Assembly (NCBI RefSeq): GCF_024809975.1
Contig: NZ_JANUDY010000008.1
Span: forward strand, 124,001-188,000
DNA length: 64,000 bases
From: Comamonas sp. BIGb0152
GTDB taxonomy: Bacteria; Pseudomonadota; Gammaproteobacteria; Burkholderiales; Burkholderiaceae_C
Direction: 5' to 3'
Shown here: positions 1 through 10,073 of the stretch, piece after piece
Position numbering within the stretch: position 1 is the first letter of the stretch
Layout of the letters: each line of letters starts with the position of its first letter
Made by a program: the position numbers and the translations under genes
The notes under the pieces: model-generated
Told to the model about the DNA's origin: nothing
Database searches by the model: none
The model's input: only the letters and a program-made list of their open reading frames with translations

Positions 1-722
1 ATCACCTTGGCGGCATAGCCTCCGTCGGTCGGCAGGTTGGCAGCGCCCACATAGTATTTGAGCCCACCTTCAAGCGAGCCAGCCCGCTCAATGCACTCTT
101 GCAGCACCTTGACGCCCACGCGCAAATTGGTAACCGGATCGAAGGCCGCAAAGTGGCCGCCGAAATTCTCGTACTTGTCCGTGTGGATCTTGGTCATCAC
201 CTGCATCAGGCCCTGGGCACCGACCGAGCTTTGGGCAAAGGGGTTGAAACTGGATTCGACAGCCATGATCGCGAGGATCAGGGTGGGGTCCAGCTTGGTT
301 TCCTTGCCGACCAGGTAGGCCTCAGACACCAGGACCGCCAGCGGCTCGGGCGCAACCCGGTACTTCTTGGCCAGCCAGTAAGCGACAGCTGCCTGGTTTC
401 TGGGCAACTGCTGCGGATTGGTGGCCGTGGCGCGATCGACCGCAGCCATCATGGCGGCATCATCGCCCACGGTGGCCTCTGCCTCTGCCTCTGCACCAGC
501 CAGGTCCGGAGTCGTTGCAGTGTGGGTGCGGGCCTGCAGCCAGCTGCGCAGCTGCGCCTCTCCGGCATGGCGCAGGTCATCACGCGACACCAGGGTGAGG
601 GCGCAGAACGCCACCACCAGACCAATCAAAGCAAAACTGTTGTGCGCCATGGTCATCAGACCACGACTGATGGTGGCGCTCAATGAGCGCACACCGGCAT
701 CCACTTGCGCGGGAGCCGTCAT
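1..722 (-). CDS. Lytic transglycosylase, SLT domain (C-terminus beyond window)
   Basis: Predicted membrane-anchored murein lytic transglycosylase that cleaves the MurNAc-GlcNAc bond. About 240 N-terminal residues are visible; the rest lies off the left edge. There is a short cytoplasmic N-terminus, one hydrophobic segment at about residues 28-46, an Ala/Glu-rich linker, then an SLT fold. The catalytic-glutamate region reads ILAIMAVESSFNP, followed by GAQGLMQVM and a GxxYY-like motif (GGLKYYVGAANLP), all as in Slt70-type enzymes. The ATG at 722 is preceded by an AAAGGA-type ribosome site and by a long structured leader with its own promoter. The exact MltC/MltE/Slt subclass cannot be fixed from the part visible. 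Confidence 0.85.
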   Translation of the reverse strand, partial: MTAPAQVDAGVRSLSATISRGLMTMAHNSFALIGLVVAFCALTLVSRDDLRHAGEAQLRSWLQARTHTATTPDLAGAEAEAEATVGDDAAMMAAVDRATATNPQQLPRNQAAVAYWLAKKYRVAPEPLAVLVSEAYLVGKETKLDPTLILAIMAVESSFNPFAQSSVGAQGLMQVMTKIHTDKYENFGGHFAAFDPVTNLRVGVKVLQECIERAGSLEGGLKYYVGAANLPTDGGYAAKV

Positions 723-944
723 AGGGATTTTTCCTTTCTAAGTCCCACCACCTCCAATAGCCCGGCGGATAGTGCACCGGGCTGGGGTCTGGCAGGGTGG
801 AGCCGCACTGTCCTGTGCGGTCACCGGCAGGCTGTCTGCGTTGCAGACGGCCCTTTGTCGTTTCAAGCACGCTCTTGCGTGTCAGGGGCTACGATCAAAA
901 CACCGTGAGGGGTGTTGACTAAAAAATCAGCAATTAATGCGATG
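723..944 (-). promoter_or_regulatory. Long structured 5' leader of the transglycosylase gene
   Basis: Between the predicted transcription start (about 944) and the ATG, the minus strand folds into consecutive perfect hairpins. Stems (plus coordinates) are 899-904/911-916, 868-872/877-881, 834-839/843-848, 803-808/815-820 and 759-765/777-783. A further weak stem (GGGA/TCCC) surrounds the ribosome-binding site just before the ATG. No U-run follows the stems, so this is not a plain terminator. I could not match it to a riboswitch class from memory. The stems are seen; a regulatory role is inference. Confidence 0.5.
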
Positions 945-950
945 GGGTGA

Positions 951-980
951 ATTCTAGAAGCTTGCTTAATAAGCAGTCAA
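951..980 (-). promoter_or_regulatory. Sigma-70 promoter with palindrome in spacer
   Basis: On the minus strand TTGACT (980-975) and TAGAAT (956-951) are separated by 18 bp, a near-consensus housekeeping promoter driving the leader and transglycosylase gene. The spacer contains the palindrome TGCTTA-A-TAAGCA at 963-975, placed where a repressor would block RNA polymerase. Confidence 0.6.
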
Positions 981-2082
981 CACTATTGATTTGTAAAATC
1001 AGAATAAAAAGTAATAAGAAAAGGTGTATAGCAAGACCGGGCATCGGCGTTTGCGGCTGGGGCCGGCAAGGCGGCAAAGACCCGGCGGGAAGGCGGAAAA
1101 AGTGCCAACCGGTTCCGCCATCAGCGCAGCGCTGCGGCGGCTTGAATAGCCTGCATCAACTGTTTTTTATAAGGTGATGCAGATGGTTGAACTGCTGAAA
1201 TCTGAATCTTTGTCAAATGCTGTATGCATTTAACGCTCTTTTTTTATCTGTGCCGCCAGCCATCGCGGGCCTAAAAGCGGCGCCAGCCCCGCGCAGCGGC
1301 TTGGCAAGTGAGATGCCATCCTGCGCAGGGGTGCAGCAGAAAATGCTGTCCTCATTTGGGCCGAGCGACTTTCGTCATCAAGCGGTCATCTGCGCAGGAG
1401 TCGATGGGCTTGTAAACATCAAAAAACTGTATAAAAACCAGGATAAAAATGCCAATAACCCGCTATCGGCACAGGTTTTTGGTATTTGTACCCTGGTATA
1501 AATGCTTTTTTTCCAAAAATCACTGCCATGGCGTTGGATTTTTGCGCTGCCCGCCGTCTTGTACGGGCTTGGCGGGCCCGCCGTGGAAGGGGGCGATGCG
1601 CTGACCGGGGTGATGGCGCCAAGCAAGAGCCGCTTTGGCACAACCCTGGCCCTGTGCGGAGGATGGAGGCGAATGGGGATGCACTGCAGGGCAACTTTTG
1701 CAGGCCTGCCGCAGCGGTGGACAAAGCAGGCCCTGCAGCGGATCGCCGGGAGCCATGTTCGATCCAAGCCAGGGCCTTGGGCTGGTCGCCCAGGGTTTCA
1801 GCGTCGTCGCTATGGAAACTCCGTGCATCCCTCTATATATATAGGCAGTGTTCCAGCGCTCCTTGGACGGTGGACTGTGGCGTCGCCGCCATCAACGATT
1901 GTGAACCAGCCGCAGATGCCGCCTTTGTGTGCTAAGTCAGCGTCGCCGCAGCGGCGTATTTGTGCACAATGGCCCATGGACGCGCCAGGCCGCTGCCACG
2001 CTGGGCAACAGGCTGTCGCCGCCGTCCCTGCAGTGGGGCCTTATGCATTGGGCCGTATTGACTCTGACTGAGGATCGTCGCC
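981..2082. other. About 1.1 kb with no supportable gene
   Basis: Open frames here are short, overlap each other on both strands and resemble nothing I recognise. Visible items are a small inverted repeat (TGATTT/AAATCA, 987-1001), an AT-rich patch around 1420-1510 and an alternating TA tract near 1836-1848 that could be part of a promoter for the gene at 2083. It may hold an sRNA or a decayed gene, but I see no direct support. Confidence 0.4.
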
Positions 2083-9176: not shown

Positions 9177-9261
<85 letters not shown>

Positions 9262-9276
9262 TTTCAGGATGGAGCA

Positions 9277-9282
9277 ATTATA
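9277..9282 (-). promoter_or_regulatory. -10 box of tRNA-Leu copy 1
   Basis: Perfect TATAAT on the minus strand, 16 nt before the mature 5' end. Flanking bases (about 9261-9290) are nearly identical to those at 9516-9545 before copy 2, so the promoter was duplicated with the gene. No convincing -35 is visible. Confidence 0.6.
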
Positions 9283-9392
9283 GGGGTGGGTTGGACGCAG
9301 TTTTGGGGAAAGCGCAAAAATTTTCTCAAAAAAGATAGCGATGAACGCTGGCCTGCTGGGTGCTGCCGAGCTTTTGGTGGCCAGCAAAGCGA

Positions 9393-9425
9393 AAAGGCTG
9401 CTGCACATGGTGTGCAGCAGCCTTT
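9393..9425 (-). terminator. Terminator of tRNA-Leu copy 2
   Basis: A 15-bp perfect stem (9393-9407 with 9411-9425) just after the tRNA 3' end, with a short, interrupted U-run on the minus strand. Confidence 0.65.
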
Positions 9426-9431
9426 GCTGTT

Positions 9432-9516
<85 letters not shown>

Positions 9517-9531
9517 TTTCAGGAAGCCGCA

Positions 9532-9537
9532 ATTATA
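9532..9537 (-). promoter_or_regulatory. -10 box of tRNA-Leu copy 2
   Basis: TATAAT on the minus strand, 16 nt upstream of the mature 5' end, in the same context as copy 1. Confidence 0.55.
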
Positions 9538-9751
9538 GGGGTGATTTTTTGCGCCAAATCTGAAATGGCGGAAAATTTTGGTGCGGCCCTGTTGTCAGCG
9601 GATCCAGCACGGCAGTGCGGGTGGATGCATTCCGCAAAGGCGCTGTGGCTGCCTGGTGCGCCGCCGTTTGTCTTGCCATGGGCCGCCGGAAAGCATCCCT
9701 GCAGTGAGATGGATGCCGTAAGGGTGGAAGGCGGTTGGGCTACAGGCAAAG

Positions 9752-9783
9752 AAAAAGCCGCTGCACAAAAAGTGCAACGGCTT
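9752..9783 (-). terminator. Terminator of tRNA-Leu copy 3
   Basis: Minus-strand stem AAGCCGTTGCAC / GTGCAGCGGCTT with loop TTTTT, followed by a U-run. The stem has one G-T wobble and is clearly related to the terminator of copy 1. Confidence 0.75.
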
Positions 9784-9788
9784 ATGTC

Positions 9789-9873
<85 letters not shown>

Positions 9874-9964
9874 TGATGATGCAGGGCAGTGCCCTTTATC
9901 GACTTTCCTAAAAAACCACTGTAGAAACAGTCAGTAAAGACTGATTTTTCACCGTTTTCACAAA

Positions 9965-9985
9965 ACAAGTTGTACTTGTCGTTAA
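9965..9985 (-). terminator. Weak terminator of tRNA-Leu copy 4
   Basis: ACAAGT (9965-9970) and ACTTGT (9974-9979) form a short stem; a TTTTG run follows on the minus strand. Confidence 0.4.
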
Positions 9986-9988
9986 ACT

Positions 9989-10073
<85 letters not shown>

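Follow-up and report, generated by a model that had tools for sequence, protein, structure and literature searches.

The 64-kb stretch of Comamonas DNA analyzed here (the window) carries a gene for an SLT-domain lytic transglycosylase, referred to below as SLT, and a long folded leader RNA between the promoter and the start codon of that gene. Our observations cover the promoter, the folding of the leader and evidence that this fold is under selection, together with its single-copy occurrence per genome and its link to SLT. With moderate confidence, we favor the reading that the leader is a cis-acting, gene-specific, processed 5' UTR of the SLT mRNA that sets the dose of SLT. The RNA is probably the Comamonas version of a leader described earlier from Burkholderia, and it resembles a control element for one gene more than a ligand-sensing riboswitch.

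A folded leader between the promoter and the SLT gene

The initial annotation of this DNA had called a lytic transglycosylase gene downstream of five perfect stems in about 160 nt, with a near-consensus promoter upstream of them. The gene call was confirmed by a match to PF01464, and the window holds the N-terminal 240 residues of a 331-aa frame that continues past the window edge. The promoter was also confirmed, at 980-951 on the minus strand, as the better of two matches in a scan of 600-2100; the same scan found no plus-strand promoter in that interval. The features of the locus are as follows.

3..722, minus strand: SLT-domain lytic transglycosylase gene (PF01464, E = 3.8e-17), with its ATG at 722
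951..980, minus strand: sigma-70-type promoter of the SLT leader, TTGACT-18-TAGAAT, found by motif search and conserved in relatives
723..944, minus strand: structured 5' leader RNA, from fold, clade alignment and conservation, with a start near 944 inferred from the -10 box
899..916, minus strand: stem 1, AACACC/GGTGTT, 6 bp, inner 5 pairs invariant in 8 clade members
855..898, minus strand: core, the best-conserved part of the leader, in which the helix TTG(A)TCGT/ACGACAA surrounds stem 2, pairing probability at least 0.92
868..881, minus strand: stem 2, CACGC/GCGTG, 5 bp, inside the core, invariant in the clade
830..852, minus strand: stem 3, GGC.GTCTGC/GCAGAC.GCC (perfect 6 bp at 834-848), with compensatory and wobble changes
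803..820, minus strand: stem 4, CCGCAC-AGGACA-GTGCGG, 6 bp, with G-C to A-U compensatory changes
759..783, minus strand: stem 5, AGCCCGG/CCGGGCT, 7 bp, partly kept (85.4% of cells paired)
732..739, minus strand: ribosome binding site AGAAAGGA, from sequence and clade alignment
864..1014, plus strand (opposite promoter and gene): sub-threshold match to Rfam RF02422 (Bp1_738), 29.1 bits against a cut-off of 45

The five perfect Watson-Crick stems were counted off the window sequence at 759-916 on the minus strand, between the promoter and the ATG, and comprise 6, 5, 6, 6 and 7 bp (30 bp in total). Five stems were reached by 1 of 1000 dinucleotide shuffles and 30 bp by none of 1000, and among 405 tiles of 158 bp over the 64-kb window a single one matched the five-stem level. 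The MFE z-score of 720-950 was -4.17 on the minus strand, a value as low being found in 0 of 200 shuffles. Because the plus strand of the same interval folds nearly as well (z-score of -3.97), folding alone does not decide the strand. When 63 nt of coding sequence were included in the ensemble computation, pairing probabilities reached 0.99-1.0 for stems 2, 4 and 5 and 0.63-0.72 for stem 3, but only 0.33-0.35 for stem 1 in the window. It is possible to draw the sixth, weak stem that had been suggested around the ribosome site (GGGA...UCCC), but by eye it is lost in 2 of 8 clade members and is therefore no conserved part of the leader. An intrinsic terminator, defined as a GC hairpin followed by a U-run, was absent from the minus strand of the window leader. 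Elsewhere in the window, four consecutive tRNA-Leu(CAG) genes occupy 9177-10073 on the minus strand.

The promoter is conserved well beyond the window. Among the SLT-upstream stretches of relatives (107 loci, 102 unique), TTGAC-19-TA[GAC]AAT occurred 74 times in the 102 unique stretches, and the shorter-spacer pattern TTGAC-17/18-TA[GAC]AAT was found in 21 of 102, against a mean of 0.02 in a shuffle control run on the shorter-spacer pattern. When the 74 promoter-aligned stretches were compared, all 74 had an AT within the spacer as well as an A placed four bases ahead of the -35 box, and each position of the CCGCC discriminator agreed in 62-69. An extended promoter pattern including the spacer AT occurred once in the 5-Mb genome from which the window comes, at the SLT leader. 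For the order's other families, a raw, uncontrolled count gave at least one loose upstream promoter match at 16 of 25 loci with an SLT relative and none at the remaining 9. At 945-1010 on the minus strand of the window, positions outside the hexamers were strongly conserved in relatives, namely the spacer AT, the CCGCC discriminator and two bases preceding the -35 box, an A at a distance of 4 and a T at about 21. These positions may form an overlapping regulator site.

Conservation in the window clade and leader types in relatives

Eight leaders served to build R1, a covariance model of the leader core. Of 53 genus genomes R1 matched 8, with a single match per genome that always lay just upstream of SLT, and among 150 family genomes it matched only the genome of the window; filtering was stricter whenever a search spanned more than 40 genomes, so that these and the other genome counts for R1, R2 and RF02422 are lower bounds. 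An SLT-like match was present in all 53 genus genomes, a few being weak or partial. The 8 R1-positive genomes were those with an SLT 81-100% identical to that of the window, and the remaining near-full-length SLT matches in the genus had at most 73% identity to it.

Five of the seven relatives in the clade had leaders 89-97% identical to the window leader, with catalytic coding sequences 87-89% identical; for the two farther relatives the values were 70-71% and 85-87%. The core at 851-898 was 92-100% identical to the window in all seven, loops included, and the GAAAGGA of the ribosome binding site was invariant in 8 of 8 clade members. Judging from the five relatives in which the leader is at least as conserved as the catalytic coding sequence, the window leader looks to be under selection. 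Stem 1 (5 counted pairs), stem 2 and 4 outer-helix pairs never vary in the clade. Since the 9 counted core pairs (outer helix and stem 2) are invariant, the core yields no covariation evidence. Stems 3-5 changed on both sides at 4 pairs, giving 7 double-change cells; 7 cells were equaled by 0 of 500 shuffles and 4 pairs by 92 of 500. In stem 5, 3 of 6 counted pairs deviate through unpaired cells only. The covariation sought in relatives' leaders appeared as compensatory changes in stems 3-5, but not in the invariant stems 1 and 2.

Outside the clade the leaders differ. An SLT match at E <= 0.001 was found in 149 of 150 family genomes, some of the matches being weak, and leaders at 108 of 112 loci were read (those left out included L016, at a contig end, and L067 and L130, which have no promoter by the pattern). 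A loose shared-layout pattern was fitted by 58 of 102 unique family leaders; the other 44 do not fit. In this layout a 5' hairpin is followed by a junction of the form CGCUGCCG..CGGC that includes a variable helix, then by a GCGUACCAAUCC-like string, more sequence and the ribosome site. Of the 58 core leaders, 46 entered a plain MAFFT alignment, from which RNAalifold returned just 4 pairs with zero covariation. The variable helix was misaligned in plain MAFFT, and we therefore used an anchored subset and a covariance model instead.

This model of the family layout (R2) was seeded with 18 leaders. At E <= 0.1, R2 matched 69 of 98 searched loci, with the seeds counted in; this locus search covered 98, and a further one 35, of about 192 loci. 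Among 150 family genomes R2 matched 42, once each, and every match (42/42) lay on the SLT strand, 57-139 nt upstream. Its single match among 200 order genomes came from a family member. R2 had no match in the window or elsewhere in the same genome, and the homology of the window RNA to R2 therefore rests on position, promoter and similar layout. In a model-fitted alignment (A8), double changes were present in 16 of 23 R2 pairs, with 165 cells against 55.9 in shuffles, counts that lean towards R2 because the alignment was fitted to the R2 structure and contains the R2 seeds. When the R2 structure was placed on a MAFFT alignment of the 18 seeds (A6), which is not structure-fitted, there were 6 double-change pairs against 2.5 (0/500 shuffles) and 6 double-change cells against 3.0 in shuffles (20/500 as high); the R2 covariation score on this alignment was no better than in shuffles (195/500 as high). 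The conserved promoter, the signs of selection, the compensatory changes and the link to SLT in 8/8 R1 and 42/42 R2 matches support the proposal in the initial annotation that a regulatory RNA precedes the gene for a cell-wall hydrolase.

Several other leader forms were seen. In the genus, 14 of 27 leaders have a hairpin plus U-run located at the leader start. At L175, L178-L183, L185-L189, L191 and L192, a CGCTC-loop-GAGCG hairpin and six T lie about 5 nt past the -10 box. The leader of Delftia tsuruhatensis NBRC 16741 (L060) is the same as that of a genus genome (G006, locus L137), and three named Comamonas loci (L118, L127 and L136) have SLT with leaders of other types. The source of the window is therefore most likely Comamonas as broadly defined in GTDB. 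In another family of the order, three loci (L153, L155 and L163) carry a hairpin, UUCC-GGUCUGG-GGAA, before SLT, the loop of which can by eye pair with a downstream CCAGACC (CCAGGCC in L163). Loop and downstream stretch form a candidate pseudoknot with one G-U exchange.

Tentatively, we suggest that in many lineages of the order the promoter and the gene for a wall-cutting enzyme have been kept, and that the long structured RNA between them has been remodeled repeatedly. The leader would then regulate peptidoglycan cutting as an RNA that evolves quickly but keeps its position, and R2 would be a structured RNA class without an Rfam 15 match in the loci scanned. The forms in question would be the window-clade core, the R2 junction class, the Delftia type with a hairpin and U-run at the very start, the Burkholderia type with a terminator, and the pseudoknot-like type in another family. 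Lytic transglycosylases need careful dosing because they cut the cell wall. The presence of R2 leaders before SLT in 42/42 cases, together with the other form in the window clade, suggests that in part of the Burkholderiales wall cutting is dosed at the RNA level, and offers a case of a stable promoter and gene with a rebuilt RNA between them. The R2 model is one outcome of the analysis; another is a probable strand correction for a Burkholderia sRNA family in Rfam, set out below.

Probable relationship to leader RNAs of Burkholderia

The initial annotation had proposed a comparison with Rfam, which returned no riboswitch match in the leader but did return RF02422 below threshold, as listed above. 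This was the single RF02422 match in the genome of the window (E = 8.9e-4), and its alignment spans the full model length and is carried largely by the promoter end. Among 200 order genomes, RF02422 matched one other genome, above the cut-off, in the SLT leader of locus L143 (66.9 bits). RF02422 is thus located at the SLT promoter-leader in the window and in L143 alike, and at 2587-2791 of L143 it likewise reads on the strand opposite SLT. By eye, the SLT strand of L143 has a terminator-like hairpin and a U-run. Because RF02422 opposes the promoter, the L143 hairpin with its U-run and SLT, we conclude that the strand of the Rfam model is probably reversed relative to promoter, terminator-like hairpin and gene. 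The reverse-complement consensus of the model contains a terminator-like hairpin with a U-run, whereas the window leader does not.

RF02422 originates from Bp1_Cand738_SIPHT, a candidate in an RT-PCR screen of B. pseudomallei, as given in the excerpts of that study (PMC3521395). The excerpted B. thailandensis study describes BTH_s13, an RNA in the 5' UTR of BTH_I1527, which is SLT; it was found as a processed species of 209-400 nt and was about 10-fold over the SLT mRNA in some conditions, with leader and SLT levels varying by condition (PMC4035088). The same excerpts place BTH_s13 next to a SIPHT prediction and report the leader to be more conserved than the gene; the evidence is correlative, from RACE, Northern blots and qPCR (PMC4035088). 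Through RF02422 and L143, we infer that the window RNA is related to BTH_s13 and that the window gene has BTH_I1527 as its orthologue; the SIPHT prediction adjoining BTH_s13 would then be Cand738.

BTH_s13 and the window leader both belong to the 5' UTR of an SLT gene, and the window leader is a structured RNA between the promoter and the SLT start codon. BTH_s13 is reported to be more conserved than its gene; the window leader is at least as conserved as the catalytic coding sequence in 5 of 7 relatives and less conserved in the other 2. Processing was shown by experiment for BTH_s13, whereas the window leader is known from sequence. In B. cenocepacia, ncS18 and ncS33 are described as processed 5' UTRs with a dual mRNA/sRNA nature in the excerpted report (PMC5688073); the window leader would be the same kind of element, a structured, processed 5' UTR, before another gene. 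The excerpts of PMC5688073, PMC4603805 and PMC11109978 name no such SLT leader in these bacteria, and searches of an open-access paper library brought up no further description of Cand738, BTH_s13 or a Comamonas SLT leader.

Proposed processing of the leader and alternative explanations

In the mechanism we favor, the conserved, strong-looking sigma-70 promoter would give a high output of leader. The folded leader would be cut from the coding part, or would decay more slowly than the coding part, such that a stable short leader RNA accumulates and little full-length SLT mRNA survives. Processing would set the enzyme dose. By analogy with the excerpted B. thailandensis report, the Comamonas leader may be processed in the same way, with processing as the regulated step. 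Because R2 misses the window and R1 is confined to 8 genus genomes, a mechanism shared across lineages would rest on position and promoter, not on sequence.

Like the window leader, the 6 other clade members tested have no terminator. In folds that included about 30 nt of coding sequence, the ribosome site was 0.36-0.72 open across 8 clade members; with 63 nt (about 60) the window value fell to 0.19, against 0.48-0.65 for the seven other members. The lack of a terminator in the window and 6 clade members and a ribosome site 0.36-0.72 open together fit processing more closely than they fit attenuation or occlusion of the site. Since the leader occurs in one copy, at a single gene, and diverges quickly, a processed, gene-specific 5' leader is the best reading.

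An alternative is that the leader is a 5' UTR-derived sRNA acting in trans, which would chiefly serve to base-pair with other mRNAs and for which SLT is merely the host transcript. An sRNA with its own promoter had been suggested for this DNA; the promoter is present, but no intrinsic terminator was found in the leader. The conserved GC-rich discriminator in the promoter fits an sRNA, as does the excess of leader RNA over SLT mRNA in some conditions in the excerpted B. thailandensis report (PMC4035088). R2 leaders also keep a conserved stretch, GCGUACCAAUCCAAACGAGG, which the model leaves unpaired except for its first three bases. However, the RNA body differs too much between lineages for R1 or R2 to span them, which makes a shared seed unlikely, and R2 always adjoins SLT (42/42). 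We regard a main role in trans as unlikely, though it deserves serious weight.

We consider it rather unlikely that the structure merely protects or insulates the 5' end of the mRNA with no regulation. By eye, lineages retain the chain of hairpins even as its sequence changes, and 7 of 8 clade members have a ribosome site that is roughly half open or more, both of which insulation would allow. Yet a core 92-100% identical in 7 of 7 relatives, loops included, exceeds the needs of insulation, and leader and SLT levels shift by condition in the B. thailandensis excerpts (PMC4035088).

A transcription attenuator, in which polymerase halts at an intrinsic terminator in the leader and a signal permits read-through, has its best case among relatives. 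Among 108 leaders of relatives, 10 (including two or more repeats) have a terminator-like hairpin with a U-run, against 0.8 expected from shuffles, and others were found in the 14 of 27 genus leaders and, by eye, in L143. The genus hairpins, however, start about 5 nt after the -10 box, very early for termination, and the window leader and 6 other clade members have no terminator. Attenuation is accordingly improbable in our view, though it may act in some lineages.

The initial annotation had raised a ligand-sensing leader, possibly for c-di-AMP. The c-di-AMP riboswitch (ydaO-yuaA) precedes cell-wall hydrolases of actinobacteria and shares with the window leader a place before a wall hydrolase, but the window had no ydaO-yuaA match at the thresholds tried. 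No Rfam 15 riboswitch model matched anywhere in the window at the gathering cut-off; over 500-1500 at E <= 10 no c-di-AMP class appeared, and the riboswitch matches were limited to a 10.2-bit fragment of a Mn2+ model inside the coding sequence. Relatives' leaders, scanned in sets of 18, 3, 11 and 4 loci, gave no Rfam riboswitch either. The c-di-AMP proposal is therefore not upheld. Control of SLT by a new class of ligand-sensing riboswitch would accord with the invariant core in the window clade and with the conserved family junction CGCUGCCG..CGGC..GCGUACCAAUCC. Most riboswitch classes, in contrast, do not occur once per genome before one gene, as this leader does, and known aptamers are not known to diverge as fast between lineages. 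Together with the lack of an Rfam riboswitch match in the window leader or the relatives' leaders scanned, this makes a new class very doubtful.

The Rfam matches listed for relatives' loci were ZTP riboswitches downstream of SLT, RF02422 in L143 and one weak M23 match in L065 outside the leader. The ZTP riboswitch (RF01750) lies between SLT and a frame that is GlyA-like by eye, on the same strand, in 13 of 18 relatives' loci (for example, at 2335-2498 of L012).

RF02422 reads against the gene (plus strand in the window, anti-SLT strand in L143), which would imply an opposite-strand sRNA, and the comparable fold of the plus strand would permit one. We consider such an sRNA scarcely credible, because the conserved promoter and the U-run hairpin of L143 both point along SLT and the scan of 600-2100 found no plus-strand promoter.

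Two further candidates for parts of the leader were rejected. The window MFE hinted at an anti-Shine-Dalgarno role for the 5' U-run GAUUUUUUAGUC. Its mean pairing probability was 0.00-0.27 in 8 clade members, and its pairing with the ribosome site was below that of shuffled 5' ends in 7 of 8, in a control that counts the whole shuffled 5' end and not an equal length; we rejected this role because the pairing values are low. A conserved leader peptide was discarded as well: by eye, the family motif ATGGCGTACCAATCC gives a start and codons in some leaders, whereas others have ATA, ATT, ACG or nothing in place of the ATG, and several have an in-frame TAA. Finally, a pairing seen by eye and lost in two relatives joins the leader to the SLT start codon region in the window through 6 bp (GCCGUC/GACGGC).
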